A stretch of 64,000 nt of DNA from Morinoia aosen. Taxonomy: Eukaryota; Arthropoda; Malacostraca; Amphipoda; Talitridae. Below the pieces are notes generated by a model. It was not told the DNA's origin and searched no databases. It was given only the letters and a program-made list of their open reading frames with translations. The position numbers and the translations under genes are program-made. The stretch lies in assembly GCA_030386875.1 (NCBI GenBank), contig CM059564.1, forward strand, positions 71,009,436 to 71,073,435. Reading direction: 5' to 3'. Each line of letters starts with the position of its first letter. Positions within the stretch are counted from its first letter, which is position 1. Positions 800-49,415 of the stretch are shown one piece after another.

Positions 800-1968
800 T
801 GATGTATCATCATTCAGGATTAGGATTCAAGTTACAACAGATGTTCAAAATGTTTCCCAGTTACTTCTATGCACAACCTGTACCGATTCTTAGAAGACTG
901 CCGTACTCGTTCGAACACTCCCCTCTTTTCTGCTATGTCTCCAGCAGCCACTGCAATCCCGGCAATCAAATTTTCCTCTGATTCCACGGGCATCTCATGC
1001 ACGAGGCTCTTCATGTCCCCACAGAAAAAAGTTTAATGGGTTCAGATCTGGAGACCTACAAGGACAGTTAACTGGTCCTCCACATCCTATCCATCTGTTT
1101 GGGAAGTTAATGAATGGTGTGTCTCTGGTGCTCTTGAAAAATGAGGCGGGGCACCATCTCATTGAAACAACATTCTGCGGCGAATATCAAAAGGAACATT
1201 TTCAAGTAATACGGGAATAGTCCTTTGCAGGAAAACATTGTAAGTATCTGCTGTGAGTGTAGCAGGGAAAATGTATGGACCGATCAAGTGACTCCCTACA
1301 ATACCTACCCAAACATTGAAACTGTACCGATGTTGATGCTTGTGTTCAATAATGTTGTGGGGATATTCTTCCGCCCAGTGGTGCCGGTTTTAATGGCTAA
1401 AAACACCTTCTCTTGAAAAATTTGCTTGATCTGTAAAAAGAATGGATGAAGAAAAATTCCAATTGTAGCGTACCTTATTGAGGCACTATCTTGAAAAGAC
1501 AACCTGGAGTTGGTAATCTGCTGGTAGCAATCCTAAAACTCTTTCATATCTGTAGGGATGAAGATCACTCCCACGCAAAACGTTTCGCACTTCAGCATGA
1601 TCTCTGATCCCCAGTGCATCAGCAACACAATGACAACTTGAATTAGGATGATCCTGAGTGTACTCTAGAACCTCTCGCTCCCGTTCAAGAGTTGATCTTT
1701 CTCTCCATGCATCAGGTCGCGTTACCTCAAAAGAACAAGTTTCTCGAAGCCTCCTACAAATAGTAGTGAAGGTCCTGAGATTAGGCACATTCTTGTTTGG
1801 GAACTTATTTCTGTACAGAATTGCTGCTTGCCTCGAGTTTCCTTGTGCTTCTCCGTAAGTCAAATGAATGTCAGCCATTTCTTCATTTGTAAATCGTTGC
1901 ATGACAGGGCAGTTGGCAGTGCTACTCTTAATGCAACGAAGTCCAGAAACGAAATGATAAGCAACCAA
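800..1968 (-). pseudogene. DUF4817/DDE transposase, broken
   Basis: Would encode a transposase that cuts and rejoins the element's ends. The N-terminal part (1486-1968) is open and starts near the HTH-like DUF4817 signature: FTNEEMADIHLTYGEA, then YRNKFPNKNVP and RRLRETCSF. Downstream, in shifted frames with stops, come ILFTDQANFSREGVF (the usual D-E pair now D-Q), a WVG block, then FQ-stop-DGAPPHF near 1155-1180, matching the second catalytic Asp block. The C-terminal open piece (832-1014) begins MKSLVHEMPVESEENL, the conserved segment after the last catalytic block. Frameshifts and stops occur between all three parts, so no functional protein is possible. The DUF4817 and DDE calls are from recalled family motifs. 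Confidence 0.85.
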
Positions 1969-2363
1969 TCGTCTAGCAGAAAAATATTTCTTCTAAGCTA
2001 AAAATTTGATGTGGTCAGTAAACCTTAAAAGTTTGAATTTTGTCGTGTGAAATTGTTCTCACAATTTCTTTTTAGAAACTTTTTGTCATATGCAGGTGTT
2101 GCCTCAAAATTTACTATTTACTTAAAAACATAAATTCTTTTGAATGTTAGTGACACGGTTGAAAATGCAACGAGCCTTATTAGGGTTTTAAAACCGTGAT
2201 TACTCAATGAAGTGCGGAATGAGAGAATACGTACCTAGACAAGATGCAAGCTGAAGTTTTCTAATTATTTAATTTTAATCTGCATACATAATGTGTGTAA
2301 ATTTCCCTATGCTTAATAACTCTAAATAGTACAGCTTGTGCTTCATCCAAACATTTTTATCAA

Positions 2364-3074
2364 ACGTAGTAAAACCAACTTGCCGCAACGCTCACGTTCG
2401 TCTAGCCATGCCTATCTGGTGCAGTGACATGGCAACATGTGGGTGCGCGTCAATACTGGTGAACTCATATCAATATTCCTCCTAGCAAATGCACTTTATC
2501 TGATTATTTTTCGTCATAAATTACATCTCCCGAAAGGTCTTGAAATGGGCATTCATCGTAGGCATCTAGTTGTCAGCGCGTTTTGGTGCGTTTTGACCCA
2601 CTTACACCGACTATAAATAAGAACGCCGCGTTCTGAGTGGCGCATTTTACACGTTTCCCTCCCTCTGACCGCAAAAGCACTAACCGCCGGTGAAGCTCCG
2701 TCTTCTGCCCAGCGCTTCGCTAACCTCGATCCGCAGTCGCCATTCAACGGCGGCATATCGTTTTTTACAATTGAAACCAATAATTTGGTTAGCCTATTTT
2801 GAATTTGACCGTCATTTTCCTACTTATTTTAGACGTTTTTCAAATTTTGACAGCATGTCCGTACAAAGTATTAAAAGATTTACTTTGTGACCAATTTTCA
2901 TCAAAATCGGTTGAAAAATGAACATTTTACGGCGAAAATTGTTGATCAGAATGCAAATCAAAAAACTGTAACTTTTTTTAAAACTGAATTTTGCTTAAAA
3001 AATACACCACAATGTACTGCTATGATGACTCTACTGGTGGTTAGAATGTTTGCACTGAATTCTCCAACACCGTG
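2364..3074 (-). repeat. Right long TIR, with an extra GC-rich block
   Basis: Reverse-complement partner of 59-575. It is longer because about 193 bp (2564-2756) sits between the GCCTACGATG block and the CAATTGTAAAAAA block, which are nearly adjacent in the left arm. The extra block is clearly more GC-rich than its surroundings and contains TATAAATA near 2612. No coding function is seen. Confidence 0.75.
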
Positions 3075-3123
3075 TTTATATTAGTGTACATGAACCGTCA
3101 TAAATGACGGGATACGATATTGT

Positions 3124-3884
3124 CTTGATACAAATCTTGCAGATGTTCATCATAAAGAAATAAATCCATCCTAATAGTACCTGCAAGTAAAATATTCTTG
3201 TACGTGTGCACTGGTGAAACCCGTATAACAGATCCGATCATTTAGCATCCTTTTAATCGTGTAATAGGGAGTCAGACCAACCAACCAAGAAGGACCAACC
3301 AGTTTTATTTGTTGAATGAAATTTCCATCGTAATAACACAAGAGAAATCATGCACAGGAAATACCTAAATCTACCAACTTATTGATTTAAGGAGACACTT
3401 GGTATTTTATTGTATAAGAACAATCAACACTGTATAATAAAACGCCAGGTGTCTCTATCTCTTTATAAAAATATATGTTCATGTTTTTGTGCATAATTTT
3501 TCGTATGTTATTACCATGGGAATCTGCTTTCTTGGATGGTATCACAAATACCATTCAAATAATTATAATATGAAAACCCTTCATCTGCTCACTTTTATTT
3601 ATAAGTAAAAAATATTGCATGAAAATTGAATCTATTGTTAAGAAAATGCAGCTTATCAAGGTGAAAAGGTATGGTAACTTTTTAAAAACTTCTTGGTTAA
3701 TAACAATTTAAATTGTAATACACAGTTGTTACTTGCTTGGTTGGTGTGTGCGTCTGTGACGTTCTTAAGGATGCTTTATGACCGTATCTGGGGTACGAGT
3801 TTCACCAGTGCATAAGTACAAGAATATTTTAATCACGGGTACCATTAGGATGGATCTATTTGTTTATCATCTATACCTTGAGAC
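3124..3884. mobile_element. Non-autonomous foldback/MITE-like element
   Basis: Left arm about 3124-3290 and right arm about 3733-3884 are inverted repeats of each other. Shared blocks include ATCCATCCTAAT, AAAATATTCTTGTAC, GCACTGGTGAAAC and the ACCAACCAAG inner end. There is no coding potential between the arms. It begins about 50 bp after the preceding transposon, so the two could be nested or abutting. The superfamily cannot be assigned because the termini and target-site duplication are not clear. Confidence 0.7.
3392..3455. repeat. Short hairpin inside the foldback element
   Basis: GAGACACTTGGTATTTTATT pairs with the reverse complement of the segment ending AACGCCAGGTGTCTC, across a loop of about 14 bp. 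It lies inside the larger inverted repeat, so there are two tiers of palindrome. Confidence 0.75.
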
Positions 3885-4088
3885 TTTTTTAAAGAAAACT
3901 ATAGAATCCCTTCGTTTTTGATGGATCATGTACGCTAGTAAGTATACATAATAGTAAAACTTGATTTTTAACATTCTGTTGCAAATTTAAAAGTCGTTCG
4001 TAAATAAAGAATGTAAAAAACAAATGTACAGGTGGCAACACCTGCACCCATTAAGTAATAAAATATTCATCTTATAAATTGTGAATAG

Positions 4089-4235
4089 GTGGATTTGGAG
4101 TCACAAAGTTGTGAATTGGTGAGTCGGTCTTGGAGTCGTAAAATTCTGGAAAAGTGGAGTCGGAGTCGGAGTTGCCAAATTCTGAAAGGTGGAGTCGGAG
4201 TCGCAAATTTTTTCCTCCGACTCCACAACCCTGTT
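4089..4235. repeat. GAGTCG-rich dispersed-repeat remnant
   Basis: Repeated GTGGAGTCGGAGTCG units about 40-60 bp apart (near 4155 and 4190) end in CCGACTCCACAACCCTG. The wording, ending in an inverted copy of the unit, resembles repeat tails widespread in invertebrate genomes. I cannot name the family. Confidence 0.5.
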
Positions 4236-7200
4236 TGCTACAAACATGTTATTAAAAATGTACATACATCTATGTGATTACATTATACATCTATTCGTCA
4301 AATTTCATTACACTTTTTTATTGTTGGGAAATTATGACAAAAAAATATTTATCGAGCGTCTGGGCACTTTCTGCGGGCACCGTAACTACACCAGTAATTT
4401 TGACTGTTTTGGGCCTCAGTCGCTGTGATCCGTTAATAAACTTCAGAGGCATCAGTATGATCTAATTGACTCACCGAATCTCTCAAGGCACATCCTCTTC
4501 AGCTGACGATTCAAAGAAAAAATTCCCTTCTGGAGAATTGGATGAGGATGGCTTACGGGTCAGCTCATGCAGGAACTCATTTTCGCCAGCTAGATCCCAC
4601 TAATTGCTTCAGGAGAACGGAAGACCACCTGTCATTTAGAATGAAAAATTTATGCGTGGATTATTCTAATTGAACGACTTGACTTCACCCACTCTTCTCG
4701 AAAAGACTTGTCTTTTTCTCAAACTAAAGGTCTACAGCTATAATATTTTTGCCAATTCTCTGTCGTATTTACCAGGCTTCTGCGAAGCCAACATTTTTCA
4801 GTCCTTGATATATACAAACTAATTAAAATTTATGTCAGATTAAGTTCCTTGGCTTATTTTTGTAGGCTGATATTAAAGACAGGTTTCGTGTTTCTCACAA
4901 TTTTAACTTCATGTCCGAATTTAAGTTCTTTCGTGGAAACCTAAGAAAAAGTGATTCTTTCCATTAACTCATTTTTCCAGGTGAGGAGAGATTTTTTTTG
5001 GAGGAGGAAAATTATACATAGCGTCCTTCCGCGCACTATATGCACTTGCTTCATTTGGCCTAGATTTATAGGGACTCAAAACGATAGAAATAGTCATTTG
5101 TGACCAAATCCATTCTTTTTCCTGTTCCTTGATTGTTTCACGTAAAGGTATGAAGGCAAAATGTTTACGAGAAGAATCCCAAGGAATTGATAATATCAAT
5201 TGGAAAATAGATTTAATTCAAAGATACTCACTTTGCAAGATGGATTTTCTGTAGAAACTTGTTATGAAAAGCCACAGAATTTAACGTTTTCTTGATCCAT
5301 GTTCGAACAGGGTTGGGCCGTCACCGCAACGAGTTGTGTCAATATTTTGTCTCCATTTGGCGAGACTTTGGTTCTGGTTCGTCCTTTAAGAGGTGTGCAG
5401 TTCCATTAAATAGTCAATTTCTAGGATGATGCTAAAGTTATAGAACCAAATTCTAATGGCCACTTTACATTAAACTAATCTTTTTCTGATAGTACTTCAT
5501 CAGTATCAAAATTGATTAATGGAAAAATATTCATGCATTCGAAGTTTTGCACATTTAATACTTCATTTTTATTTTTCTTTCTAAGCATTTTTAAATATTT
5601 AAATGCCTAGCATTACAATAAAATTGATAGAAAAGGTTAGTGACATTAACTGTGATATTTTTACCATTTGGTCCTGAAGCGTACGAATTCATCGTTGCGA
5701 GGTATTTTTCAGTCTCAATCATGAAAATAAACAAGATCACTTCACAGAATATCACCGTGCGAAAATTTCTCGCGTATGAGCAGAAATTCTTATAATGAAT
5801 CATGAAGTTCCTTGAACAGTCATAAACAAAGTTAAGCTTTACTGTTGTTAATATTAAAAGAAAATTCAGAAATCTTCACATGAATGTTATATGAAGTTCA
5901 ACATAAACGATATTCATGACTATTGAAAAACTATTGCAGGTGTGTTGGGAATAACAATGAACGAGAATAATAATTTCACAATTCTCGTTAGCGATTGTGA
6001 CATGTCAGCAATCATATCGTGTAACAAAAATAAAACATTTCATAACTCTTTACGAACTACCCTGCAGTGTTATCGCTCGGAGAACTGATCCTTCAGCTCG
6101 CAGAGAATAGTATATTTTCAATTAGCTTCCTCACAAATCTTGAGTGAGTTTTCCGAAACTTTGATAAGAAGCGAAGGCGAGTGACCTGGAGCGGCCAAAC
6201 TCAGCAAATGAGAGGAGGTGAGGTCGTCCATACCGTAGATTTCCGCACCTTCATGGGCTCTCGAGATGCGCGTAGCAAACACCATCTTTCTTCAGTGGAT
6301 AATTACTCGCTCCCTCCACTAATTTAGAAAGTTTTCCAGTCCTCCATTGAACTCTCAGACTCGATAATCTACGAGCTTCCAGTCAATTAAACCTTCTGTG
6401 TCCGCTCTTAGAAATGAATGAAAAGCAACTGGGAAAAACACGGCAGATTTAAGGCGCGCAGCGGCTGAAAAAAAGTTGATTTTTGGACAGGTCTTCGTGA
6501 TCTGAATGCCGAGGGAGGGAAAGACAGTTGGGAGAAAGAATGAAAAGGCGAAAGAGAACTTTAGAGAAGTCGCTTCTCAGGAAGAATCGAAGGAAAAATA
6601 GCTCTGGATTTGCAGAATAGCCACGCTAATGAAATACGTATTTTTGGTTAAGACGTTACGAATGAAAAAAACGTAATTTTTCTGCCTCTAAGACGTATTT
6701 AGCGCGGTAATTTAAGCAACTCAGTTGCCGTACTGGATCATCAACATTTGTTTAGAAGCAAAATGCTGCTTGATCGATCGAGCACAGCTCCTCTGACGCA
6801 GTGCGCCTCCAGTTGAGCAGTGAATTAAAAATGTCTACGAACAGAATTCGAACGACGACTAAAGTACTTGCTCACCAATGTTGGTTTAGATTTAAGCTTG
6901 TTATACCAGCTTTAAGTTTCCACTCCCTTCATTGTATTCATCGAACTTGGACTTAAAAACACATTTTCCATCTAGAATAAATATTTTGCATTTGTTTACA
7001 GGCCTAGAAAGAAGTTAAAAATAGGAAGCGTACTCAGTTAGTATTCGCCGATTTATGTACGATAATGATGGAGAATTGATTGATTGGTGTCATTCTGATA
7101 TTTCCCGGCAGGAAATCACTGCGTTGTGCAGTACACTGCTTCGGCTGCTTATGTATGGTACCGATGACAGAAGTGGTTACACTATAGAAAAACACGGAAA

Positions 7201-7779
7201 AAATTTTTATGACTGATCCAGGCCACTCGTTATTTTTTAAGTCAGGTGAACTATACTACTAATTTTTAAGTTTGGTATTCATAACAAAAAGTATTCAAAA
7301 TACAGCGTTTAAAGATTTTTATTTTGCCTCGAGTTATCATTTGAATTGGAGAGCTAAGTTTCCCCCATATTGTAACTAAAAACAAAAAAAATTCGAAACA
7401 ATTTATTTACCACAATGTAATACATTGAATAGATTGTTTCATATGGCTTTTACAATGGACAAATTTTATTATAGGTACTTGTGGGCCTGAATAAGTTTAT
7501 CAACTTCAAGGACTCCCTATCATCAACCCTATTTTACTGTAAGGTTTACTATTATGTTCAACCTAGTACACCACCTAGTCCCACACTAGACTGATCAATG
7601 AATGGGTCCGCTGATAATTCTATTAATAGGTTTACAGCAATAGTTAACATGAACAAGATCAGAACAGTATATTCTAAAAAGACTAAAGAGCTATGCTGTT
7701 TAACATAGTAAATTTCCTTTTCAAGTTGAATCATGTAAAAGAATAAATATCACTTTGTTACCCAGTGTCATAAATACTT
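4236..7779. other. No gene recognised
   Basis: AT-rich sequence with only short (60-80 codon) chance ORFs. No conserved domain, RNA gene or structured repeat was recognised. A slightly GC-richer patch lies near 6150-6330 without a recognisable product. Confidence 0.5.
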
Positions 7780-8088
7780 CTATAGAAATAGAGAATCGAG
7801 GTCCGTTTTGAAAACTTTGTATGATCTGATTTCACGGATTTCATCAGGGATTGGATTCTCGGTCTCGGTTGAAAAGAAGATGATATCGTGTTTTGACCGT
7901 GCTTCTAAATAAAGAGGATGAATGAACTTAGTTCTATTTCTAGTTATACTAGTATGATCATGTTGACCAGTTCGTGCGGATAATAATTGTTTACGGTCTT
8001 TGTCTCTCTCATTAGTCAACGTCTTGCGTATGAAGCTATACGTGTGGAGTGACTCTGGAGATAAAAATGCTGAAAATAATTCAACCAT
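7780..8088 (-). pseudogene. Probable C-terminus of a non-LTR retrotransposon ORF2
   Basis: A 102-codon open stretch. Its second half has the layout of the extreme C-terminus of Jockey/CR1-type ORF2 proteins: a basic block (ITRNRTKFIHPLYLEARSK), an F-F-x-x-T segment, then NPIPDEIREIRSYKVFK near the stop, comparable to the usual WN-LP-I-S-FK pattern. No RT palm is found upstream on the same strand (8089-8480), so if correct it is a short fragment. It could instead be chance resemblance. Confidence 0.45.
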
Positions 8089-9128
8089 TTCTATGAAATA
8101 TCATTGTGAGAATTTTATTCTAATTTCATCACCCCTCTAAGGTTTTTAGCAGGGTGAAGATCAAATTGGTTTTATTTTCATCCGTTGCATGTCATGCTTC
8201 AATTTCGGATTGTATACATGGTAAAATAAGCGTTCCATAAAATCTTTTCAAAGCTACTTAATTAACAGTTTAGGATTGATTTATGCAATATACTATTTGA
8301 AGGCCGGATTTTGTATCTCTCATAATGCCCGGGAGCTTAATGAGAAAGTTTTTTTTTAATCTGACCTTCACCAATCTTGATGCATGGAATAAACGTTTAC
8401 CGATTGTAAGAAAAAATAATATAATTTGCCTTATCGATTTTGATTCATCTTTCATTTGCTTTGAGCTACATTAACACTTTTGACGTTATTTATACTCTCT
8501 GCAATTAAAACCGGATTTTCATTAGAAAGAACCACTTGATTAGGAAGAGCCATGCTGTCGTGCAAAATAATTAGGAATTTGAAAAAAAAGTAGATTTAAC
8601 CGCATCATTGATGAAGACTAAAACACCGAGTGTAGGCGAGGACAGCCTATCAACCAAGCAAGCAAGTAAACACTCAAATTATCAAATTTCCTAAGGTTTA
8701 TTGATTACATCTGAAATATACTCCTTTTGGTGAACAACGTCCAGTTCTTCACTTACTGCATGGACGTTCAGGCATGGACGCCTTTCAACGTCTCATGCAT
8801 GACTCGGATCTTGTCTAAAATGATATGACTTCAATTTTAAAACATTCAATAAATTTAATTCACATTTGTTCGTTTATTAAATCATTATTAGAGTTGAAAA
8901 GCCATCAATATGAAATACTTTAATTAAGAGGAATGCAATATTGCATTCAGTGACATATTTCTTGGATTGCTCATCAAAGCTTTTAAATAACATAAATTGA
9001 GAACAAATCATTGACTAACATTATTGTAAAAAAGTGCTATTGAAATATAGGCAGCAAATGAAATAAACAGCGAGGGAATATTTGGCACAGGAGAAGAATC
9101 TGAGTTGACCACATCCTTGCGTGCGTTT
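8089..9128. other. No gene recognised
   Basis: AT-rich spacer before the minisatellite. Nothing recognised on either strand. Confidence 0.5.
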
Positions 9129-11136
9129 CTGAGAGGCGTCACATCAGAGCTGCTGAGAGGTGTCACATCAGAGCTGCTGAGAGGTGTCACATCAGAGCTG
9201 CTAAGAAGCGACACATCAGAGCTGCTGAGAGGCGATACATCAGAGCTGCTGAGAGGTGTCACATCAGAGCTGCTGAGAGGTGTCACATCAGAGCTGCTGA
9301 GAGGTGTCACATCAGAGCTGCTGAGAGGTGTCACATCAGAGCTGCTGAGAGGCGTCACATCAGAGCTGCTGAGAGGTGTCACATCAGAGCTGCTGAGAGG
9401 TGTCACATCAGAGCTGCTAAGAAGCGACACATCAGAGCTGCTGAGAGGCGATACATCAGAGCTGCTGAGAGGTGTCACATCAGAGCTGCTGAGAGGTGTC
9501 ACATCAGAGCTGCTAAGAAGCGACACATCAGAGCTGCTGAGAGGCGATACATCAGAGCTGCTGAGAGGCGTCACATCAGAGCTGCTGAGAGGCGTCACAT
9601 CAGAGCTGCTGAGAGGTGTCACATCAGAGCTGCTAAGAAGCGACACATCAGAGCTGCTGAGATGCGATACATCAGAGCTGCTGAGAGGTGTCACATCAGA
9701 GCTGCTGAGAGGTGTCACATCAGAGCTGCTAAGAAGCGACACATCAGAGCTGCTGAGAGGCGATACATCAGAGCTGCTGAGAGGCGTCACATCAGAGCTG
9801 CTGAGAGGCGACACATCAGAGCTGCTGAGAGGCGACAAATCAGAGCTGCTGAGAGGCGACACATCAGAGCTGCTGAGAGGCGATGCATCAGAGCTGCTGA
9901 GAGGTGTCACATCAGAGCTGCTGAGAGGCGATACATCAGAGCTGCTGAGAGGCGTCACATCAGAGCTGCTGAGAGGCGATACATCAGAGCTGCTGAGAGG
10001 TGTCACATCAGAGCTGCTGAGAGGCGTCACATCAGAGCTGCTGAGAGGCGACACATCAGAGCTGATGAGAGGTGACACATCAGAGCTGCTGAGAGGTGTC
10101 ACACCAGAGCTGCTGAGAGGCGTCACATCAGAGCTGCTGAGAGGCGACACATCAGAGCTGCTGAGAGGCGTCACATCAGAGCTGCTGAGAGGCGACACAT
10201 CAGAGCTGCTGAGAGGCGATACATCAGAGCTGCTGAGAGGCGTCACATCAGAGCTGCTGAGAGCCGTCACATCAGAGCTGCTGAGAGGCGACACATCAGA
10301 GCTGCTGAGAGGCGACACATCAGAGCTGCTGAGAGGCGATACATCAGAGCAGCTGAGAGGCGACACATCAGAGCTGCTGAGAGGCGACACATCAGAGCTG
10401 CTGAGAGGCGACACATCAGAGCTGCTGAGAGGCGATACATCAGAGCTGCTGAGAGGCGACACATCAGAGCTGCTGAGAGGCGATACATCAGAGCTGCTGA
10501 GAGGCGACACATCAGAGCTGCTGAGAGGCGACACATCAGAGCTGCTGAGAGGCGACACATCAGAGCTGCTGAGAGGCGACACATCAGAGCTGCTGAGAGG
10601 CGACACATCAGAGCTGATGAGAGGCGACACATCAGAGCTGATGAGAGGCGACACATCAGAGCTGATGAGAGGCGACACATCAGAGCTGATGAGAGGCGAC
10701 ACATCAGAGCTGATGAGAGGCGACACATCAGAGCTGCTGAGAGGCGACACATCAGAGCTGATGAGAGGCGACACATCAGAGCTGATGAGAGGCGACACAT
10801 CAGAGCTGATGAGAGGCGACACATCAGAGCTGATGAGAGGCGACACATCAGAGCTGCTGAGAGGCGACACATCAGAGCTGATGAGAGGCGACACATCAGA
10901 GCTGATGAGAGGCGACACATCAGAGCTGATGAGAGGTGTCACATCAGAGCTGATGAGAGGCGACACATCAGAGCTGCTGAGAGGCGACACATCAGAGCTG
11001 CTGAGAGGCGACACATCAGAGCTGCTGAGAGGCGACACATCAGAGCTGATGAGAGGTGTCACATCAGAGCTGATGAGAGGCGACACATCAGAGCTGCTGA
11101 GAGGCGACACATCAGAGCTGCTGAGAGGCGACACAG
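9129..11136. repeat. 24-bp minisatellite, about 83 copies
   Basis: Tandem monomer ACATCAGAGCTGCTGAGAGG plus a variable 4-base part (CGTC, TGTC, CGAC or CGAT). Because 24 is a multiple of 3, long ORFs persist: 678 codons on plus (unit TSELLRGD or TSELLRGV) and 719 codons on minus (unit SSDVSPLS), plus partial frames. The array has three zones: left (to about 9800), rich in TGTC monomers and a CTAAGAAGCG variant; middle, mostly CTGCTGAGAGGCGAC; right (about 10609-11090), with CTGATGAGAGG. The CTAAGAAG variant recurs at 9201, 9417, 9513, 9633 and 9729, steps of 9, 4, 5 and 4 monomers. There are no spacers, so it is not a CRISPR array. Confidence 0.97.
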
Positions 11137-37560: not shown

Positions 37561-37600
37561 GGAATAAGAAAGAAAAAAAAGAAAGAAAAAAGAAAAACAG
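37561..37600. repeat. GAAA-rich simple repeat
   Basis: Purine tract of AAGAAAGAAAAA-type units. Confidence 0.8.
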
Positions 37601-37965
37601 TATATTTCCAATATAGATGGTACAAAAGTACCATCATTGGTTTTTAAAATCTCTTACAATTAATACACTTAGATGATACACACACACGAGTATTGTAAAA
37701 CTCGTGTCACTAGTCGAAAAGAAATGATTGAGGGCAATGTACTCCTATTCTTGCTTAATCTACATTTGATAATACATGTAATGATAATTATAAGAGACAA
37801 CACAATTTCATGGACGATGCATTTTCATTGTGAGGTGAAAACACTTGACAGTTTACATGTACATGACATAAAACTTCGCAATTCTTGACGCCAGGAAATA
37901 ATGCATGAATCGCTTGTTTCGGCTAATGTTCAAAAATGTCATTTTAAGGAAGCATGAAAAAAATA

Positions 37966-38072
37966 TGTATATAAATATACATCCGTATATATATACATCA
38001 ATATATATATATTCATACATATATATACATGCATACATACACACATACATATACATGTATACACGTACACAT
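37966..38072. repeat. ATACAT/TATA microsatellite
   Basis: Alternating TATATA, ATACAT and ACACAT runs. Related CA/TA-rich tracts recur near 38310-38370 and 39040-39110 in the duplicated segments. Confidence 0.9.
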
Positions 38073-38170
38073 AAGCATGAGGACCAAGAAGATTACAAGT
38101 TTTGTATTTCTAATCCAAAAGTTTTAACATAGCGGTCATTAGTTAATAAGCATTTTATTTAAACAAAAAA

Positions 38171-38507
38171 TGGATGATCGCACAACAAATCTATAGTTTT
38201 TACATGAATGCTTTACAATATTAAAGAGATGACGAGTTAGGTATTGTTACAAGTTGAGAGTGAACAGAAAAAAGACCACTATCTCTAGTAAAATGCTAGT
38301 TGTCAGTCTAGTACACACATGCGTGCACATATACATGTAAATATATACACATACACATGCACGCATATACTTACACCAAACTCGTAAGGATATACAAATG
38401 CATTTCCATGCATCGAGGCAATACATACGCATTCTATTTAGTGTCATACGCATAGCGTGCACACGTACACACATATACAAGTAAGCATGTGCGCGAATAT
38501 CAGCGTA
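38171..38507 (+). repeat. Duplicated segment, copy A
   Basis: Begins TGGATGATCGCACAACAAAT, contains TACATGAATGCTTTACAAT, a CACATATACATG-type tract and AAGTAAGCATGT, and ends CAGCGTA. The same order of blocks recurs in copy B. Confidence 0.75.
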
Positions 38508-38817
38508 AACCAGTCAGTATAAACCAGAAATTCCAATCGAGGGAAACGGAGAAAATATTTTTTATTATGGCATGAATTTTATAAAATTTCGTACTAAAAA
38601 TAGTGGCACAAAACAGTCTACCTAAGTCTGGAACATGAAAACGATTGTGGGATGTGAATAAGAAAGAAAACATTAATGTCCTATAAAGGTTTCATATTAG
38701 AAAAAAAATGGCATTATCTTTGAAATATGGCGCAAATTGTCGGCAATTGATAAACAAACATAGGTATCACATTATAATAAGCATGTAACTATAAGCATAA
38801 TAATACTGCAGTATAAA

Positions 38818-39137
38818 TGGATGATCACACAACGAATTTATTGCTTTTTTTACATGGATGCTTTACAATTTCATATTAGAAAAAAAAATCACATTATCTT
38901 TGTAATATGGTGCAGAATGTCTGCAATTGATAAACACACACACACACATAGGTACCATGACGGTCTAGTTTGATGCATGCACAGAAATGGAGAGAAATGA
39001 CATGAAATGCAACCTTCGACTGGTTTATCTACTCTAGTGCACACAGGTGTACGTGCACATATGCACACCCATATGCCCACATACACCTATATACGTACAC
39101 ACATATTCAAGTAAGCATGTTTGCAAATGGCAGCGTA
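38818..39137 (+). repeat. Duplicated segment, copy B
   Basis: Begins TGGATGATCACACAACGAAT and follows copy A through TACATGGATGCTTTACAAT, a CA/TA-rich tract, AAGTAAGCATGT and CAGCGTA, with inserted material. A sub-block TTCATATTAGAAAAAAAA...AATTGATAAACA occurs both in copy B (near 38872) and just before it (near 38691), so the region has duplicated more than once. Confidence 0.75.
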
Positions 39138-39290
39138 TAGGCGATCAAATCACAATACCTACGCATACTTTAAAACTGTTGTGTGATATCTTGTATTATA
39201 AAACAATAAGCGAGGGAGATTTTTGAGCAATGGAGATACCAGGCAAATGAGATTCGACAGTACTTATTTTGTATGTTCTGTAACTAAGAA

Positions 39291-39640
39291 TTATTCTTGA
39301 GACACAAGATGAAGAGTTATTTTGGCTTTAAATTCTCTCGGTCTTTGAGGGACTTTAATACTCAGTGGAAGTTTGTTCCACAGTAAGGCGCCAGATATGG
39401 ACAGAGCCTTCTGCCCTAAGTGAGATGAACGATAGTTGACTAAGACATTATTGTTTCTATTCGGTTTTTGATCGGTTACAGTGGGTGGATGGAAACGCAC
39501 TATCTCAGCATTGCTCTGAGGAAGATATAACGAGGAGTATACGTATTGGGCCTTCTGCATGAGGAGCCTTTCTTGGATAGGGATCCAGCCGAGTTTATTG
39601 AGGAGAGGGGTTACGTGATCACTTCTTTTGAAATTACCGT
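39291..39640 (-). pseudogene. C-terminal part of the retrotransposon ORF2
   Basis: Reads FKRSDHVTPLLNKLGWIPIQ, ERLLMQKAQYVYSS and, near the stop, YRSSHLGQKALSISGALLWN then KLPLSIKVPQRPREFKAKI. This is the standard end of CR1/L2/Jockey-type ORF2 proteins (L-WLPI, then YNT/S, G-LWN-LP, S-FK). It continues the RT remnant after a stop. Confidence 0.85.
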
Positions 39641-40440
39641 TGCACCTTCGCTGGAAAATTCATGCACTTTTGTAAGTCCCTTTGAAGGTATTTAGGTAAG
39701 TCTCCCCATACTAGGCTGCAGTAGTCAATGCGCGATAACACAAGGGATTGAATTGCCAATAATCTGGATTTTTCGTCTAGCATACTTTTTATACGATGAA
39801 AAAACATTAAAGTTGGGCCTGTAGTTTGATGCTGTATTTAGGTCACCACTTTTATGCAACGATCTAATAATGGAGTGTTTCCATTGGTTTGGAAACATGT
39901 TGGTTACTATTGATGTATTAATTATCAGACGAATCCATGGTGCTGTAACAGGGAAACTGTCTTTGATATATTGAAGACTGATACCATCATGTCCAATTGC
40001 CTTTGTGTTTTTTAGTGAGTATAAGATATTTTGTAACTCCGGTAAATCGACAGGGCGTGGTCTCCACTTGACATCAGTTCTCGAGGGTGCAGTGGGGCAT
40101 GAATTTTCAATCGTCGTTTCATCTGGATTGGTACACACCTCACTGAAAACTTGAGCCCCTACTTTTGAAAAAAATGTGTTGAAATCTGTGGCTGTTGCCA
40201 AGGGATTTTCAAAATTACTTCTGCGATCTAAATTTTTATATGGGGCTACCTCACTAATGATTTCCCAAGTTCGTTTCGGGTTATTTTTAGCCGTTATCAG
40301 TGCCTGGTGGAAGTGAGTTTGTTTCGCTTCAGTGATTTTCTTTCGAAGAATTTTCTCATGTTTTTTATATCTCTTGCATAAAGTACTGTTTGATCTATTT
40401 TTTTGTACTCTCGCAAGTTAGCTTTCTTTATTCTGCTCAT
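39600..40440 (-). pseudogene. Reverse transcriptase remnant with the palm deleted
   Basis: After a frameshift near 40380, one frame reads the pre-RT linker (NNPKRTWEIISEVAPYKNL) and the RT fingers: LPELQNILYSLKNTKAIGHD, GISLQYIKDSF and SIIRSLHKSGDLNTASNYRP. Immediately after SNYRP the sequence jumps to FFHRIKSMLDEKSRLLAIQS and LVLSRIDYCSLVWGDLPKYL, which belong after the palm. So the core with the FADD catalytic motif, roughly 200 residues in such proteins, is deleted between about 39790 and 39830. The piece ends at a TAA near 39648. Confidence 0.9.
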
Positions 40441-40461
40441 CTCTTTCACTTCGTCAGTAAT

Positions 40462-41488
40462 TTAAACAATCCGTTTTGGCTTGGTTTTTTTGGTAACGTA
40501 AGGTGCACATTCGTCGAGAGCTGCTGTGAAGTTCTCGTTGAAGATTGACACTTGAATGTCAACATCGTCAGATTGCTTCATTTTCTGGAATTCGGTGGAC
40601 CTATCGAGAAGTTTTTCTTGAAATAGTTCTGCTGAATAGTGCCTTTTCGAGCGATAGGTCATTAAGCGGTATTTTTGTCTTTCCTTTGCAATATTAATTT
40701 CACATTCTATAGAGTGGTGATCGGAAATAGAAGGTGATATTACTGTACTAAGTATTGCGGTGGGATTATTTGTGATTGCTAGATCGAGGAGAGTTGCAGA
40801 GACTTTAGTGATGCGAGTCGGTTCTTTGACCATTTGTGATAGGCTTAGTTTATACAATAGTTTGCTTAGCTGATTGCTTTTGTCCGTTAGGTCAACGTTA
40901 AAATCTCCGAAAGCAAAGAATGATTTTTTTTGCCTGAAGGATTTCTTTGAAGGTTTCCTCAATGAAATCTAGTGTTAGATTTAGGGGAGACGATGGGTGC
41001 CGGTAAAGGCTGCCAATGATGATTGATTTGTGTTTATTTATTTGCGCTTCTAACCAAACCATTTCAATGGCTTCGCAAACTTTATTCGCTAATAGTGAAG
41101 ATGTTGAGTACATTTCTTTCACAAAAATACAAGATCCACTACCTCGGCTGGTTTTAGCGCCATCGTAGCGGTACAACACGTAATCAGGAATGTTAAAAAA
41201 TGAACTTTGGGTTCGTGAATCAAACCATGTTTCTGAGACACACAAAATGTCAATTTTTTCAGTGACCAACATTACTCTGATTTCATCCAATTTACCATTC
41301 AGGCTTCGAGCATTTACATGCTTAATTTTGATTTCACCTATATTAGCACTCTTTTTGAAGGTAGCAAAGTTACTATTTCGATGGGATCGTTCAGGGGATT
41401 TATCGATTTTGTCTAAGTTGCCCAGGGTGTTTGGCCCAGCATCTGCTATGTAAGTAAGTCTACTATTTGGCTGGGCAGCGGCACTCTG
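40462..41488 (-). pseudogene. APE-type endonuclease domain of the same retrotransposon
   Basis: Endonuclease/exonuclease/phosphatase fold that nicks target DNA. It starts in the OTU frame after the TGA: KIKHVNARSLNGKLDEIRVM, then DILCVSETWFDSRTQSS (metal-binding Glu in SETW), YRYDGAKTSRGSGSCIFVKE, IIGSLYRHPSSP. Near 40921-40931 a run of A residues (T on plus) shifts the frame, after which FFAFGDFNVDLTDKSNQLSK (GDFN motif), LLDLAITN and SISDHHSIE (SDH catalytic motif) are read to a stop at 40462. Apart from the frameshift and the stop, the domain is nearly full length. Confidence 0.9.
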
Positions 41489-42169
41489 TCAAAATGAGGT
41501 GATCCCGGTCTGATTTTTGCCTTGTGTGACAAGAGCACTGTAGTGATCGCTTCTACGATGGAGCAGTAGTGGAGGGTTATTATTTGATAACTCTGAAAAG
41601 GGATTGACTGATATTTTCAAAACACAATGATCCTGTTCATCCAGGACGAGAAGTTTTTGGCCTGTCACATTTGAAATGATTAGTGGTATAAGGTCTACAG
41701 CAGCTTGATCAAAATGTTTGTCGTCAATGTAATTATCTATGAGGTTTTGCATGTCTCCACTGTTCTTGTCAACAAACTTAGCGTGTGTGCTGTTGTTTGC
41801 TTTACTCTCTGTTTTGATTGCAGCCTTTAGGGAATTGTAATTCCAATTTGATGCTGGTTGTTTTGTAAGTAGATGAGCTACTGCATGGAGGAGGCAGTGT
41901 CCATCGGCTTTGGTGGGAATCAGTTTTATGTTCCATGATCGTTTCAATTCATCCATTGTGGAATTCATGCGTTCACAAATGGGGCTGGAGACGTTTTTTT
42001 CGTACTTTTTATAGATAGCGTATAGATATAGATAATAAGCAGATAGCGTGGTCAACTGAGAGACAAAATCATTGCCCAATGGATGAGAGGCCACAAAATG
42101 TGATCGAAAAATCGTTTCACTCATTTTTATCAATGATTTAAGCCCATCATTGTATGCATTGCCCCGCAT
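41489..42169 (-). pseudogene. OTU-type cysteine protease domain of retrotransposon ORF
   Basis: A 226-codon open stretch. It holds an OTU deubiquitinase-like core: IPTKADGHCLLHAV places Asp89, Gly90 and the nucleophile Cys92 in the D-G-x-C motif, and RRSDHYSALV places the C-terminal catalytic His at residue 209, about the usual OTU distance. Family knowledge: OTU proteases cleave ubiquitin-like linkages; in retroelements they are presumed to process the polyprotein or counter host ubiquitination. It ends at a single TGA, after which the same frame continues into the endonuclease, so this was probably one polyprotein or a readthrough. The key residues look intact although the element is dead. 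Confidence 0.8.
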
Positions 42170-42320
42170 TCTGCCACTAGTCTTTCAGTTATCATGAAGG
42201 AAATAATATTACAAATATTGATGTTTCGATACCAATTGCGAAATGGCACATTTGTAGGGAAATTGAATGAGACTATTCTAAAAAGGGTCGTCGAAGAATG
42301 TGGTTCTGTATACAAGTTTT

Positions 42321-43694: not shown

Positions 43695-44180
43695 CTCAAT
43701 ACAGCATTGTAGCTTAGTACATTCTCTCACATCCGCTCAACTTGGCGTTGTAGCTTACCATATTTCCTCAAAATTTGGCTCAATTTCACATCGTAGTGTA
43801 CTATATTCCTTCAAAATCTGCTCAGTTTGGCATAGTAGCGTACTATATTCCTTCAGAAACTGCTCAGTTTGGCATTGTAGCGTACTATATTCCTTCAGAA
43901 ACTGCTCAGTTTGGCATTGTAGCGTACTATATTCCTTCAGAAACTGCTCAGTTTGGCATTGTAGCGTACTATATTCCTTCAAAATCTGCTCAGTTTGGCA
44001 TTGTAGCGTACTATATTCCTTCAAAATCTGCTCAGTTTGGCATTGTAGCGTACTATATTCCTTCAAAATCTGCTCAGTTTGGCATAGTAGCGTACTATAT
44101 TCCTTCAGAAACTGCTCAGTTTGGCATTGTAGCGTACTATATTCCTTCAAAATCTGCTCAGTTTGGCATTGTAGCGTACT

Positions 44181-44850
44181 AAATTCCTTCAGAAACTGCT
44201 CAGTTTGGCATTGTAGCGTACTATATTCCTTCAGAAACTGCTCAGTTTGGCATTGTAGCGTACTTTATTCCTTCAGAAACTGCTCAGTTTGGCATTGTAG
44301 CGTACTATATTCCTTCAGAAACTGCTCAGTTTGGCATTGTAGCGTACTATATTCCTTCAGAAACTGCTCAGTTTGGCATTGTAGCGTACTATATTCCTTC
44401 AAAATCTGCTCAGTTTGGCATTGTAGCGTACTATATTCCTTCAGAAACTGCTCAGTTTGGCATTGTAGCGTACTATATTCCTTCAAAATCTGCTCAGTTT
44501 GGCATTGTAGCGTACTAAATTCCTTCAGAAACTGCTCAGTTTGGCATTGTAGCGTACTATATTCCTTCAGAAACTGCTCAGTTTGGCATTGTAGCGTACT
44601 TTATTCCTTCAGAAACTGCTCAGTTTGGCATTGTAGCGTACTATATTCCTTCAGAAACTGCTCAGTTTGGCATTGTAGCGTACTATATTCCTTCAGAAAC
44701 TGCTCAGTTTGGCATTGTAGCGTACTATATTCCTTCAAAATCTGCTCAGTTTGGCATTGTAGCGTACTATATTCCTTCAAAATCTGCTCAGTTTGGCATT
44801 GTAGCGTACTATATTCCTTCAAAATCTGCTCAGTTTGGCATAGTAGCGTA
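44181..44850. repeat. 8-monomer (336-bp) duplication inside the satellite
   Basis: The TACTAAATTCC variant at 44181 and 44517 and the TACTTTATTCC variant at 44264 and 44600 are each 336 bp apart, exactly 8 times 42. Confidence 0.8.
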
Positions 44851-44969
44851 CTATATTCCTTCAGAAACTGCTCAGTTTGGCATTGTAGCGTACTATATTC
44901 CTTCAAAATCTGCTCAGTTTGGCATTGTAGCGTACTAAATTCCTTCAGAAACTGCTCAGTTTGGCATTG

Positions 44970-46480
44970 TAGCGTACTATATTCCTTCAAAATCTGCTCA
45001 GTTTGGCATAGTAGCGTACTATATTCCTTCAGAAACTGCTCAGTTTGGCATTGTAGCGTACTATATTCCTTCAAAATCTGCTCAGTTTGGCATTGTAGCG
45101 TACTATATTCCTTCAGAAACTGCTCAGTTTGGCATTGTAGCGTACTATATTCCTTCAGAAACTGCTCAGTTTGGCATTGTAGCGTACTATATTCCTTCAA
45201 AATCTGCTCAGTTTGGCATTGTAGCGTACTATATTCCTTCAAAATCTGCTCAGTTTGGCATTGTAGCGTACTATATCGCTTCAGAAACTGCTCAGTTTGG
45301 CATTGTAGCGTACTATATTCCTTCAAAATCTGCTCAGTTTGGCATAGTAGCGTACTATATTCCTTCATAAACTGCTCAGTTTGGCATTGTAGCGTACTAT
45401 ATTCCTTCAAAATCTGCTCAGTTTGGCATTGTAGCGTACTATATTCCTTCAAAATCTGCTCAGTTTGGCATTGTAGCGTACTAAATTCCTTCAGAAACTG
45501 CTCAGTTTGGCATTGTAGCGTACTATATTCCTTCAAAATCTGCTCAGTTTGGCATTGTAGCGTACTATATTCCTTCAGAAACTGCTCAGTTTCATTGTAG
45601 CGTACTATATTCCTTCAGAAACTGCTCAGTTTGACATTGTAGCGTACTATATTCCTTCAGAAACTGCTCAGTTTGGCATTTTGGCGTACTATATTCCTTC
45701 AAAATCTGCTCAGTTTGGCATTGTAGCGTACTATATTCCTTCAAAATCTGCTCAGTTTGGCATTGTAGCGTACTATATTCCTTCAAAATCTGCTCAGTTT
45801 GGCATAGTAGCGTACTATATTCCTTCAGAAACTGCTCAGTTTGGCATTTTAGCGTACTATATTCCTTCAAAATCTGCTCAGTTTGGCATTGTAGCGTACT
45901 AAATTCCTTCAGAAACTGCTCAGTTTGGCATTGTAGCGTACTATATTCCTTCAAAATCTGCTCAGTTTGGCATAGTAGCGTACTATATTCCTTCAGAAAC
46001 TGCTCAGTTTGGCATTGTAGCGTACTATATTCCTTCAAAATCTGCTCAGTTTGGCATTGTAGCGTACTATATTCCTTCAGAAACTGCTCAGTTTGGCATT
46101 GTAGCGTACTATATTCCTTCAGAAACTGCTCAGTTTGGCATTGTAGCGTACTATATTCCTTCAAAATCTGCTCAGTTTGGCATTGTAGCGTACTATATTC
46201 CTTCAAAATCTGCTCAGTTTGGCATTGTAGCGTACTATATCGCTTCAGAAACTGCTCAGTTTGGCATTGTAGCGTACTATATTCCTTCAAAATCTGCTCA
46301 GTTTGGCATAGTAGCGTACTATATTCCTTCATAAACTGCTCAGTTTGGCATTGTAGCGTACTATATTCCTTCAAAATCTGCTCAGTTTGGCATTGTAGCG
46401 TACTATATTCCTTCAAAATCTGCTCAGTTTGGCATTGTAGCGTACTAAATTCCTTCAGAAACTGCTCAGTTTGGCATTGT
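44970..46480. repeat. Second higher-order duplication, offset 964 bp
   Basis: CGCTTCAG recurs at 45277 and 46241 and CTTCATAAAC at 45363 and 46327, both 964 bp apart. That equals 23 monomers less the single 2-bp deletion at about 45591. The outer limits are estimated from the shared variants. Confidence 0.8.
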
Positions 46481-48400
46481 AGCGTACTATACTCCTTCAA
46501 AATCTGCTCAGTTTGGCATTGTAGCGTACTATATTCCTTCAGAAACTGCTCAGTTTGGCATTGTAGCGTACTATATTCCTTCAAAATCTGCTCAGTTTGG
46601 CATTGTAGCGTACTATATTCCTTCAGAAACTGCTCAGTTTGGCATTGTAGCGTACTATATTCCTTCAAAATCTGCTCAGTTTGGCATTGTAGCGTACTAT
46701 ATTCCTTCAGAAACTGCTCAGTTTGGCATTGTAGCGTACTATATTCCTTCAGAAACTGCTCAGTTTGGCATTGTAGCGTACTATATTCCTTCAAAATCTG
46801 CTCAGTTTGGCATTGTAACGTACTATATTCCTTCTAAATCTGCTCAGTTTGGCATTGTAGCGTACTATATTCCTTCAGAAACTGCTCAGTTTGGCATTGT
46901 AGCGTACTATATTCCTTCAAAATCTGCTCAGTTTGGCATTGTAGCGTACTATATTCCTTCAGAAACTGCTCAGTTTGGCATTGTAGCGTACTATATTCCT
47001 TCAGAAACTGCTCAGTTTGGCATTGTAGCGTACTATATTCCTTCAGAAGCTGCTCAGTTTCATTGTAGCGTACTATATTCCTTCAGAAACTGCTCAGTTT
47101 GACATTGTAGCGTACTATATTCCTTCAGAAACTGCTCAGTTTGGCATTTTGGCGTACTATATTCCTTCATAAACTGCTCAGTTTCATTGTAGCGTACTAT
47201 ATTCCTTCAGAAACTGCTCAGTTTGTCATTGTAGCGTACTATATTCCTTCAGAAACTGCTCAGTTTGGCATTGTAGCGTACTATATTCCTTCAGAAACTG
47301 CTCAGTTTGGCATTGTAGCGTACTATATTCCTTCAAAATCTGCTCAGTTTGGCATTGTAGCGTACTATATTCCTTCAAAATCTGCTCAGTTTGGCATTGT
47401 AGCGTACTAAATTCCTTCAGAAACTGCTCAGTTTGGCATTGTAGCGTACTATACTCCTTCAAAATCTGCTCAGTTTGGCATTGTAGCGTACTATATTCCT
47501 TCAGAAACTGCTCAGTTTGGCATTGTAGCGTACTATATTCCTTCAAAATCTGCTCAGTTTGGCATTGTAGCGTACTATATTCCTTCAGAAACTGCTCAGT
47601 TTGGCATTGTAGCGTACTATATTCCTTCAAAATCTGCTCAGTTTGGCATTGTAGCGTACTATATTCCTTCAGAAACTGCTCAGTTTGGCATTGTAGCGTA
47701 CTATATTCCTTCAGAAACTGCTCAGTTTGGCATTGTAGCGTACTATATTCCTTCAAAATCTGCTCAGTTTGGCATTGTAACGTACTATATTCCTTCTAAA
47801 TCTGCTCAGTTTGGCATTGTAGCGTACTATATTCCTTCAGAAACTGCTCAGTTTGGCATTGTAGCGTACTATATTCCTTCAAAATCTGCTCAGTTTGGCA
47901 TTGTAGCGTACTATATTCCTTCAGAAACTGCTCAGTTTGGCATTGTAGCGTACTATATTCCTTCAGAAACTGCTCAGTTTGGCATTGTAGCGTACTATAT
48001 TCCTTCAGAAGCTGCTCAGTTTCATTGTAGCGTACTATATTCCTTCAGAAACTGCTCAGTTTGACATTGTAGCGTACTATATTCCTTCAGAAACTGCTCA
48101 GTTTGGCATTTTGGCGTACTATATTCCTTCATAAACTGCTCAGTTTCATTGTAGCGTACTATATTCCTTCAGAAACTGCTCAGTTTGTCATTGTAGCGTA
48201 CTATATTCCTTCAGAAACTGCTCAGTTTGGCATTGTAGCGTACTATATTCCTTCAGAAACTGCTCAGTTTGGCATTGTAGCGTACTATATTCCTTCAAAA
48301 TCTGCTCAGTTTGGCATTGTAGCGTACTATATTCCTTCAGAAACTGCTCAGTTTGGCATTGTAGCGTACTATATTCCTTCAAAATCTGCTCAGTTTGGCA
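46480..48400. repeat. Tandem 962-bp higher-order duplication inside the satellite
   Basis: Private variants recur 962 bp apart: ACTCCTTC at 46491 and 47453, CATTGTAACG at 46811 and 47773, a 2-bp-deleted monomer at about 47061 and 48023 and another at about 47184 and 48146, TTTTGGCG at about 47149 and 48111, CTTCATAAAC at 47165 and 48127. 23 monomers of 42 bp are 966 bp; two 2-bp deletions per block give 962. Confidence 0.9.
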
Positions 48401-49415
48401 TTGTAGCGTACTATATTCCTTCAGAAACTGCTCAGTTTGGCATTTTAGCGTACTATATTCCTTCAAAATCTGCTCAGTTTGGCATAGTAGCGTTCTATAT
48501 TCCTTCAAAATCTGCTCAGTTTGGCATTGTAGCGTACTTTATTCCTTCAGAAACTGCTCAGTTTGGCATTGTAGCGTACTATATTCCTTCAAAATCTGCT
48601 CAGTTTGGCATTGTAGCGTACTATATTCCTTCAAAATCTGCTCAGTTTGGCATTGTAGCGTACTTTATTCCTTCAGAAACTGCTCAGTTTGGCATTGTAG
48701 CGTACTATATTCCTTCAAAATCTGCTCAGTTTGGCATTGTAGCGTACTATATTCCTTCAAAATCTGCTCAGTTTGGCATTGTAGCGTACTTTATTCCTTC
48801 AGAAACTGCTCAGTTTGGCATTGTAGCGTACTATATTCCTTCAAAATCTGCTCAGTTTGGCATAGTAGCGTACTATATTCCTTCAGAAACTGCTCAGTTT
48901 GGCATTGTAGCGTACTATATTCCTTCAAAATCTGCTCAGTTTGGCATTGTAGCGTACTATATTCCTTCAGAAACTGCTCAGTTTGGCATTGTAGCGTACT
49001 ATATTCCTTCAAAATCTGCTCAGTTTGGCATTGTAGCGTACTATATTCCTTCAAAATCTGCTCAGTTTGGCATTGTAGCGTACTATATTCCTTCAGAAAC
49101 TGCTCAGTTTGGCATTGTAGCGTACTATATTCCTTCAAAATCTGCTCAGTTTAGCATAGTAGCGTACTATATTCCTTCAGAAACTGCTCAGTTCTCATTG
49201 TAGCGTACTATATTCCTTCAGAAACTGCTCTGTTTGGCATTGTAGCGTACTATATTCCTTCAAAATCTGCTCAGTTTGGCATAGTAGCGTACTATATTCC
49301 TTCAGAAACTGCTCAGTTCTCATTGTAGCGTACTATATTCCTTCAGAAACTGCTCAGTTTGGCATTGTAGCGTACTATACTCCCTAACATCTGCTAAATT
49401 GCTGACGCTCGTAGT

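Follow-up and report, generated by a model that had tools for sequence, protein, structure and literature searches.

A dead copy of a non-LTR retrotransposon lies in the window, the whole 64,000-nucleotide stretch of Morinoia aosen DNA analysed here (G000:C9:71009436-71073435; the genome searched comprises 1.99 Gb). It belongs to family A, one of two families that both encode an ORF1 ending in an OTU-like domain, a UGA codon and an endonuclease-reverse transcriptase (EN-RT) in one frame, and we consider it probable (about 0.78) that the UGA is leaky and gives an ORF1-OTU-EN-RT fusion. The architecture, the phase, the TGA in two families, the UGA CUA context in the second of them (family B) and purifying selection are read at the sequence level; from these we infer the occurrence of UGA readthrough and its rate.

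Family A is a young, abundant non-LTR retrotransposon of ~8.4 kb. It was sampled at 22 loci: the window copy, locus L002 and 20 further fetched copies (L009-L028), including the segmental duplicate pair formed by the window and L002 and another pair, L014/L015, with a common 3' flank. Aligned pieces of the 20 fetched copies are ~93-98% identical to L009. The 5' end agrees within about ten bases in five of six copies extended upstream, which gives the length of ~8.4 kb; 5' ends vary among the fetched copies, LTRs are absent, and a 3' end with a T/C-rich tail is common to 18 of the 20 fetched loci. Target-site duplications, judged by eye, amount to only short or doubtful repeats. In L023, an ORF1 frame (837-3524, 895 aa) abuts an ORF2 frame (3525-6494, 989 aa) in phase; the ORF1 frame is 896 aa in L015, and ORF2 frames of 989 aa are also found in L020 and L022. 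Pfam detects RVT_1 (130.6 bits) and Exo_endo_phos (27.0 bits) in the L023 ORF2, and no domain beyond these two; where ORF1 ends, an OTU match falls below threshold. APE endonuclease and RT thus share one 989-aa ORF, as is characteristic of APE-type LINEs, and the non-LTR assignment of the preliminary description is borne out by these ORF2 domains, the common 3' end and the variable 5' truncation. RNase H had no Pfam match in the L023 ORF2, which fits CR1/L2/Jockey elements without deciding placement.

No recognised domain was found in the remainder of ORF1 by Pfam or by profile comparison with solved structures. Esterases occur in CR1 ORF1, and on that basis a 'GDN' motif in the middle of ORF1 was considered as a possible SGNH esterase; this reading gained no backing from Pfam or from solved structures (the ORF1-middle profile, A2, matched only ULK1, with E values of 0.52 and 0.54). 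Background on the CR1 ORF1 esterase is found in the available part of PMC3905857. Several fetched loci contain further repeats. In L025, the 3' UTR of one family A copy apparently harbours a second family A insertion, and an empty-site comparison by eye there revealed only a short possible target duplication. On the minus strand of L026:6481-7220, overlapping tblastn pieces match ORF1/OTU at ~83% and perhaps stem from a second ORF1 fragment that is rearranged or has diverged further. The RT of a distant, different LINE (L010:2124-3226; ~28% identity to family A ORF2 by tblastn) lies beside one copy, and a degraded ORF2 piece at L012:810-1251 (62-72% identity by tblastn) is possibly an older family A relative.

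Within this recently amplified lineage the window copy is dead, broken by 5' truncation and an internal deletion. Alignment with the L009 element by blastn places it at 37566-42011 on the minus strand, where all of its features described below also lie. Its start is placed at ~42011 because, in a genome search with the OTU segment as query (40 matches scored among 1807 candidates), 38 of the 40 scored matches begin at query base 173-176 (window 42012-42009); the other two are the window itself and C9:73340397, the latter, in a segmental duplicate, matching the whole query. Coding sequence at 42184-42012 is flank, common, among the 40 scored matches, only to the segmental duplicate, so the open stretch containing the OTU starts outside the element. 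L002 (G000:C9:73338897-73342592) is 98.8% identical over 3.7 kb to the window copy with both flanks (L001), and the two form a segmental duplication on the same contig, ~2.3 Mb apart. Two blocks align with L009, 3001-5205 with window 42011-39814 (97.2%) and 5972-8242 with window 39814-37566 (95.6%), and the intervening 766 bp (L009 5206-5971), including the YADD of the RT core, are deleted at 39814; loss of the RT core with retention of the OTU catalytic residues had been recognised previously. The original extent was 39291-42320, but the element begins at 42011 and continues to 37566 through a long 3' UTR (37566-39293, ~1.7 kb), which is collinear with L009 as far as its 3' end at 8242. A T/C-rich tail follows just past 37566.

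Upstream of this UTR, the copy retains a C-terminal part of ORF1 with the OTU-like domain (41492-42010), the TGA (41489-41491, in the context TTT TGA CAG AGT), which is the proposed readthrough site and had been placed at 41486-41488, and an open linker of 58 codons (41315-41488) leading from the TGA to EN motif I (NARS). The APE-type endonuclease (40462-41314) is split by a frameshift into 40898-41488 and 40462-40968, and its pieces match Exo_endo_phos and Exo_endo_phos_2, in all cases below cut-off, while retaining the NARSL, SETW and SDHH motifs. The region behind EN and the RT start occupy 39815-40429 (tblastn, L023 ORF2 residues 354-558), the RT fragment being in yet another open stretch, and an ORF2 C-terminal region follows in two frames (39294-39813; tblastn, residues 815-871 and 873-989). 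Because of the frameshift and the separate RT stretch, EN and RT do not form one frame in this copy; the earlier statement that the OTU frame passes across one TGA into APE and RT thus holds for the in-phase APE and fails for the RT.

The C-terminal domain of ORF1 is a predicted OTU-like cysteine protease domain. OTU proteases are marked by Asp-Gly-x-Cys and, C-terminally, by a His that precedes an aromatic residue. Both were reported in the preliminary description, and the D-G-x-C (D-G-H-C) at residues 89-92 and the H-Y (D-H-Y) at 209-210 on the minus strand were recovered when counted from the Met at 42169; the Cys codon is at 41896-41894 and the His codon at 41545-41543. The domain does not start its ORF, as had been supposed, and instead ends an ORF1 of the length seen in L023 and L015. 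Against Pfam OTU (PF02338), the window segment scores 17.9 bits (E 0.0046), under the curated cut-off of 23.3, and family A with the window ranges from 17.0 to 20.0 bits, all below it. The profile check proposed for the OTU therefore fell short on the window copy itself and succeeded on its homologue in family B, which scores 34.5 bits (E 3.5e-8) in L041 and 35.2 bits in L035. DGHCLLHAV and DHYSAL are invariant in an alignment of 11 sequences (the window, two from family A and eight from family B), so that DGHC and DHY are found in 11/11, and DGHCLLHA is present in 20/20 and DHYSAL in 19/20 fetched family A copies. A profile of the 11 sequences matched solved structures with marginal E values, the six best matches all being OTU proteins (E 0.0018 to 0.034; for example, VCPIP1, 0.0018; EschOTU, 0.016; OTUD7B, 0.027); up to E 1 there were 11 matches in total, eight to OTU proteins and three to others. 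The likeness to OTU goes beyond chance, since family B passes the Pfam cut-off and OTU proteins are the top profile matches. An AlphaFold2 model of the window OTU from a single sequence had a mean pLDDT of 35.5.

Family B was found by a genome search with Pfam OTU, in which the best 150 of 1842 candidates were scored and the eight best were read; none of these eight loci is full-length, and the length of ORF2 in this family was deduced from reported frame lengths. A TTR-coded DGHCLLHA pattern, used to search for a third diverged family, gave 0 matches, and two families were found in this one genome. Identity between A and B is 48% in the OTU domain, 69% in EN and 27% in the part of ORF1 preceding the OTU. 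Synonymous sites are near saturation (pS 0.68-0.71 in ORF1, OTU and EN; dS about 1.7-2.2), which points to anciently diverged, related families within one genome. dN/dS is 0.27 in ORF1, 0.21 in OTU and 0.12 in EN and the part behind it, values that are inflated by mutations after insertion and come from one copy per family (L023 and L041), with family B ORF2 represented by its first 457 codons only and with stop codons, including an extra ORF2 stop in L041, skipped. These ratios indicate purifying selection on both sides of the TGA. Across 45 aligned codons of the post-stop linker, identity is 24%, with a dN/dS of 0.68 and a weak coding signal. The existence of family B copies in which both frames are open suggests that this family was recently active.

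The in-phase TGA is the remarkable feature because, in most copies, the endonuclease ORF offers no AUG before EN motif I. In the window and 15/20 fetched family A copies, the first in-frame Met is located 72 codons past the stop, behind motif I (58); in family B it comes at 63, with motif I at 55, in five of eight loci and at 68, with motif I at 54, in one, the remaining two loci being frameshifted. Out-of-frame AUGs precede the first in-frame Met in those 15 family A copies and in all eight family B loci, and no AUG overlaps the stop. These positions bear on termination-reinitiation, by which ribosomes that halt at the TGA would restart at a downstream AUG to make ORF2, a mode that, in the available part of PMC5972666, is described for SART1 and is a proposal for LINE-1. 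It is also true that five of the 20 fetched copies have an in-frame Met before motif I (the pairs L012/L013 and L014/L015, and L010 after a frameshift). The more common arrangement, with the first in-frame AUG behind motif I and out-of-frame AUGs ahead of it, argues against reinitiation, under which conservation of phase would moreover be needless, and we regard this explanation as improbable.

Conservation of the stop itself is best judged across the two families. TGA CAG separates the frames at all 22 family A loci, so that the stop noted in the window recurs in every other copy in which it was sought, and the OTU is joined to the endonuclease in 20/20 fetched copies, in agreement with the preliminary description. 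Taken by itself, invariance in family A is weak evidence, 226/374 surrounding codons being likewise invariant in 21 copies. In family B, TTG TGA CTA is found at 8/8 loci read, and in copies free of frameshifts ORF2 follows directly in phase. A search for this junction with a 229-residue protein query, in which the best 150 of 5925 candidates were scored, found TGA in 150/150 and other kinds of stop in 0, with one TGA in 149 copies and two in 1; because the best-scoring copies were taken, this sample is tilted to intact ones, and the search gives no place of the TGA within a match, its place being seen directly in the eight loci read. By hand count, in 54 of these 150 best copies an open frame of 1792-1872 codons runs across the TGA, frame lengths here including the read-through stop (for example, 573 + 1 + 141 = 715 in L041). 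Stop and phase are kept between A and B despite whole-codon length changes on either side (13 versus 15 codons from HYSAL to the stop; 58 versus 55 from the stop to NARS).

Alternatively, a master copy whose OTU-EN ORF was once uninterrupted could have acquired the TGA by nonsense mutation, trans-mobilisation then spreading it. The fetched family A copies are closely related, so their common TGA could be one inherited event; against this stand family B, at a dS of about 2, with TGA throughout the copies read or scored and an otherwise open frame in 54 of them, and the strong constraint on EN-RT behind the stop (dN/dS 0.12). This makes such an origin quite improbable. As judged from the sequences, the TGA is instead the terminator of ORF1, not a decay stop of the window copy, and it is probably functional, since harmless debris would be expected to decay and a harmful stop to be purged from an expanding lineage. 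Its presence in every copy read suggests that readthrough is imposed on the cell.

The codons around the stop differ between the families. High readthrough is known for the context UGA CUA, at ~1.5-2.9% alone and more with other elements, according to the available parts of PMC11166343 and PMC4359377. Type II readthrough involves UGA with CUA or CGG behind it, and family B has UGA CUA in 8/8 loci read; family A, with UGA CAG, has neither combination, and by the same partial sources this is a weaker context, leaky only through its +4 C. Near-cognate start codons also occur in frame in the linker, namely a CTG at offset 21 in 20/20 family A copies and, in family B, an ACG at offset 24 in 7/8 loci and a CTG at offset 42 in 5/8. 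ORF2 might thus begin at a non-AUG codon; however, A and B lack the same near-cognate at matching positions, and a start of this kind would leave the conserved phase and the UGA CUA unexplained, so we consider it very unlikely. RNA structure near the stop was not significant in either family (six tests, z -0.54 to +0.25): a 7-bp stem 12 nt downstream of the family A stop is no better than shuffles, and the stem-loop 6-12 nt downstream that accompanies many cases of type II readthrough was found in neither family. Fifteen miRNA-family matches in L023 were discarded, all being below gathering scores and behind ORF2. Least probable of all is another form of recoding, as selenocysteine or through A-to-I editing that yields UGG; UGA suits either route, but no SECIS matched in the two family A sequences searched (the window element at gathering thresholds, and L023 with E up to 1), and a 5' G is a poor neighbour for ADAR.

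In both families a single frame carries, in order, ORF1 with its terminal OTU-like domain, UGA, the linker, the APE endonuclease and the reverse transcriptase. Under the favoured reading, most ribosomes would halt at the UGA and produce ORF1-OTU in excess, and a minority would decode it as an amino acid and produce the ORF1-OTU-EN-RT fusion, a gag-pol-like strategy with readthrough as in gammaretroviruses and alphaviruses. The OTU would be present in both proposed products. We favour the more conservative role of a deubiquitinase acting on or around the RNP; a bolder alternative is that the OTU may cleave the fusion behind the stop. A more far-reaching idea, which we put forward tentatively and think rather doubtful, is that this LINE lineage independently evolved a virus-like polyprotein, in which UGA readthrough would set the ratio of ORF1-OTU to ORF1-OTU-EN-RT and the OTU, lying immediately before the leaky stop, would free EN-RT by cutting the poorly conserved linker and/or strip ubiquitin from the RNP so as to escape the host.

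Parts of this arrangement are known from other systems. CR1/L2/Jockey-type LINEs (ORF1 types I-V; PMC4120745, in its available part) likewise have an APE endonuclease and RT in ORF2, a long ORF1 and 5' truncation; unlike them, the present elements have an OTU at the ORF1 C-terminus and keep phase from ORF1 into ORF2 over a single TGA, and the main text of that paper contains none of the terms 'OTU', 'protease', 'stop codon' and 'readthrough'. The RLE-type Utopia/NeSL LINEs of nematodes resemble them in carrying a cysteine protease of the ubiquitin-like-deconjugating class in a non-LTR element, which in that case is Ulp1-like, N-terminal and associated with a restriction-like endonuclease, and Dualen/RandI differs in having both APE and RLE (PMC4640811, available part). 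The OTU ascribed to Dualen/RandI in the preliminary description found no confirming text in the accessible parts of the open-access literature. Acquired OTU domains are shared with Ginger1 (PMC2836005) and with Helitrons/Helentrons (PMC6431247), which, from the available parts of these papers, are DNA transposons whose OTU goes with a transposase or RepHel. Mammalian UGA CUA genes and the ilarvirus CP-RT are alike in UGA C(UA), an in-phase extension and the lack of a conserved AUG in that extension (PMC4359377 and PMC11166343, in part); these are viruses and host genes rather than a LINE, and the present elements are without a detected stem-loop. Viral OTU proteases also occur in polyproteins with a polymerase (PMC3968130 and PMC5695851, in part). 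They act as deubiquitinases (PMC3968130, in part), and the OTU-like proteases of tymoviruses and arteriviruses process viral protein whereas the nairovirus OTU does not (partial texts of PMC3968130 and PMC5695851); unlike the tymovirus and arterivirus cases, cleavage in the present elements is proposed from sequence.

In the open-access literature searched, neither readthrough between ORF1 and ORF2 of a LINE nor an APE LINE with an OTU was found. OTU domains in transposons and Ulp1-like proteases in nematode LINEs are known, and within that literature gag-pol-like UGA readthrough in a LINE would apparently be new. How LINEs produce scarce EN-RT from an RNA with two ORFs is only partly understood; frameshifting occurs in the gag of HeT-A and in further elements. 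If the proposal is true, an expanding family that retains UGA CUA readthrough would show a further route to EN-RT, and an encoded OTU protease would link LINE mobility to the ubiquitin system.

Two tandem arrays lie elsewhere in the window. One, at 43735-49383, has a 42-bp unit in ~135 copies (94% matches) and is open in several frames on both strands, because its period is a multiple of three; the other, at 9129-11135, has a 24-bp unit in ~84 copies (94% matches) and is also open in several frames.
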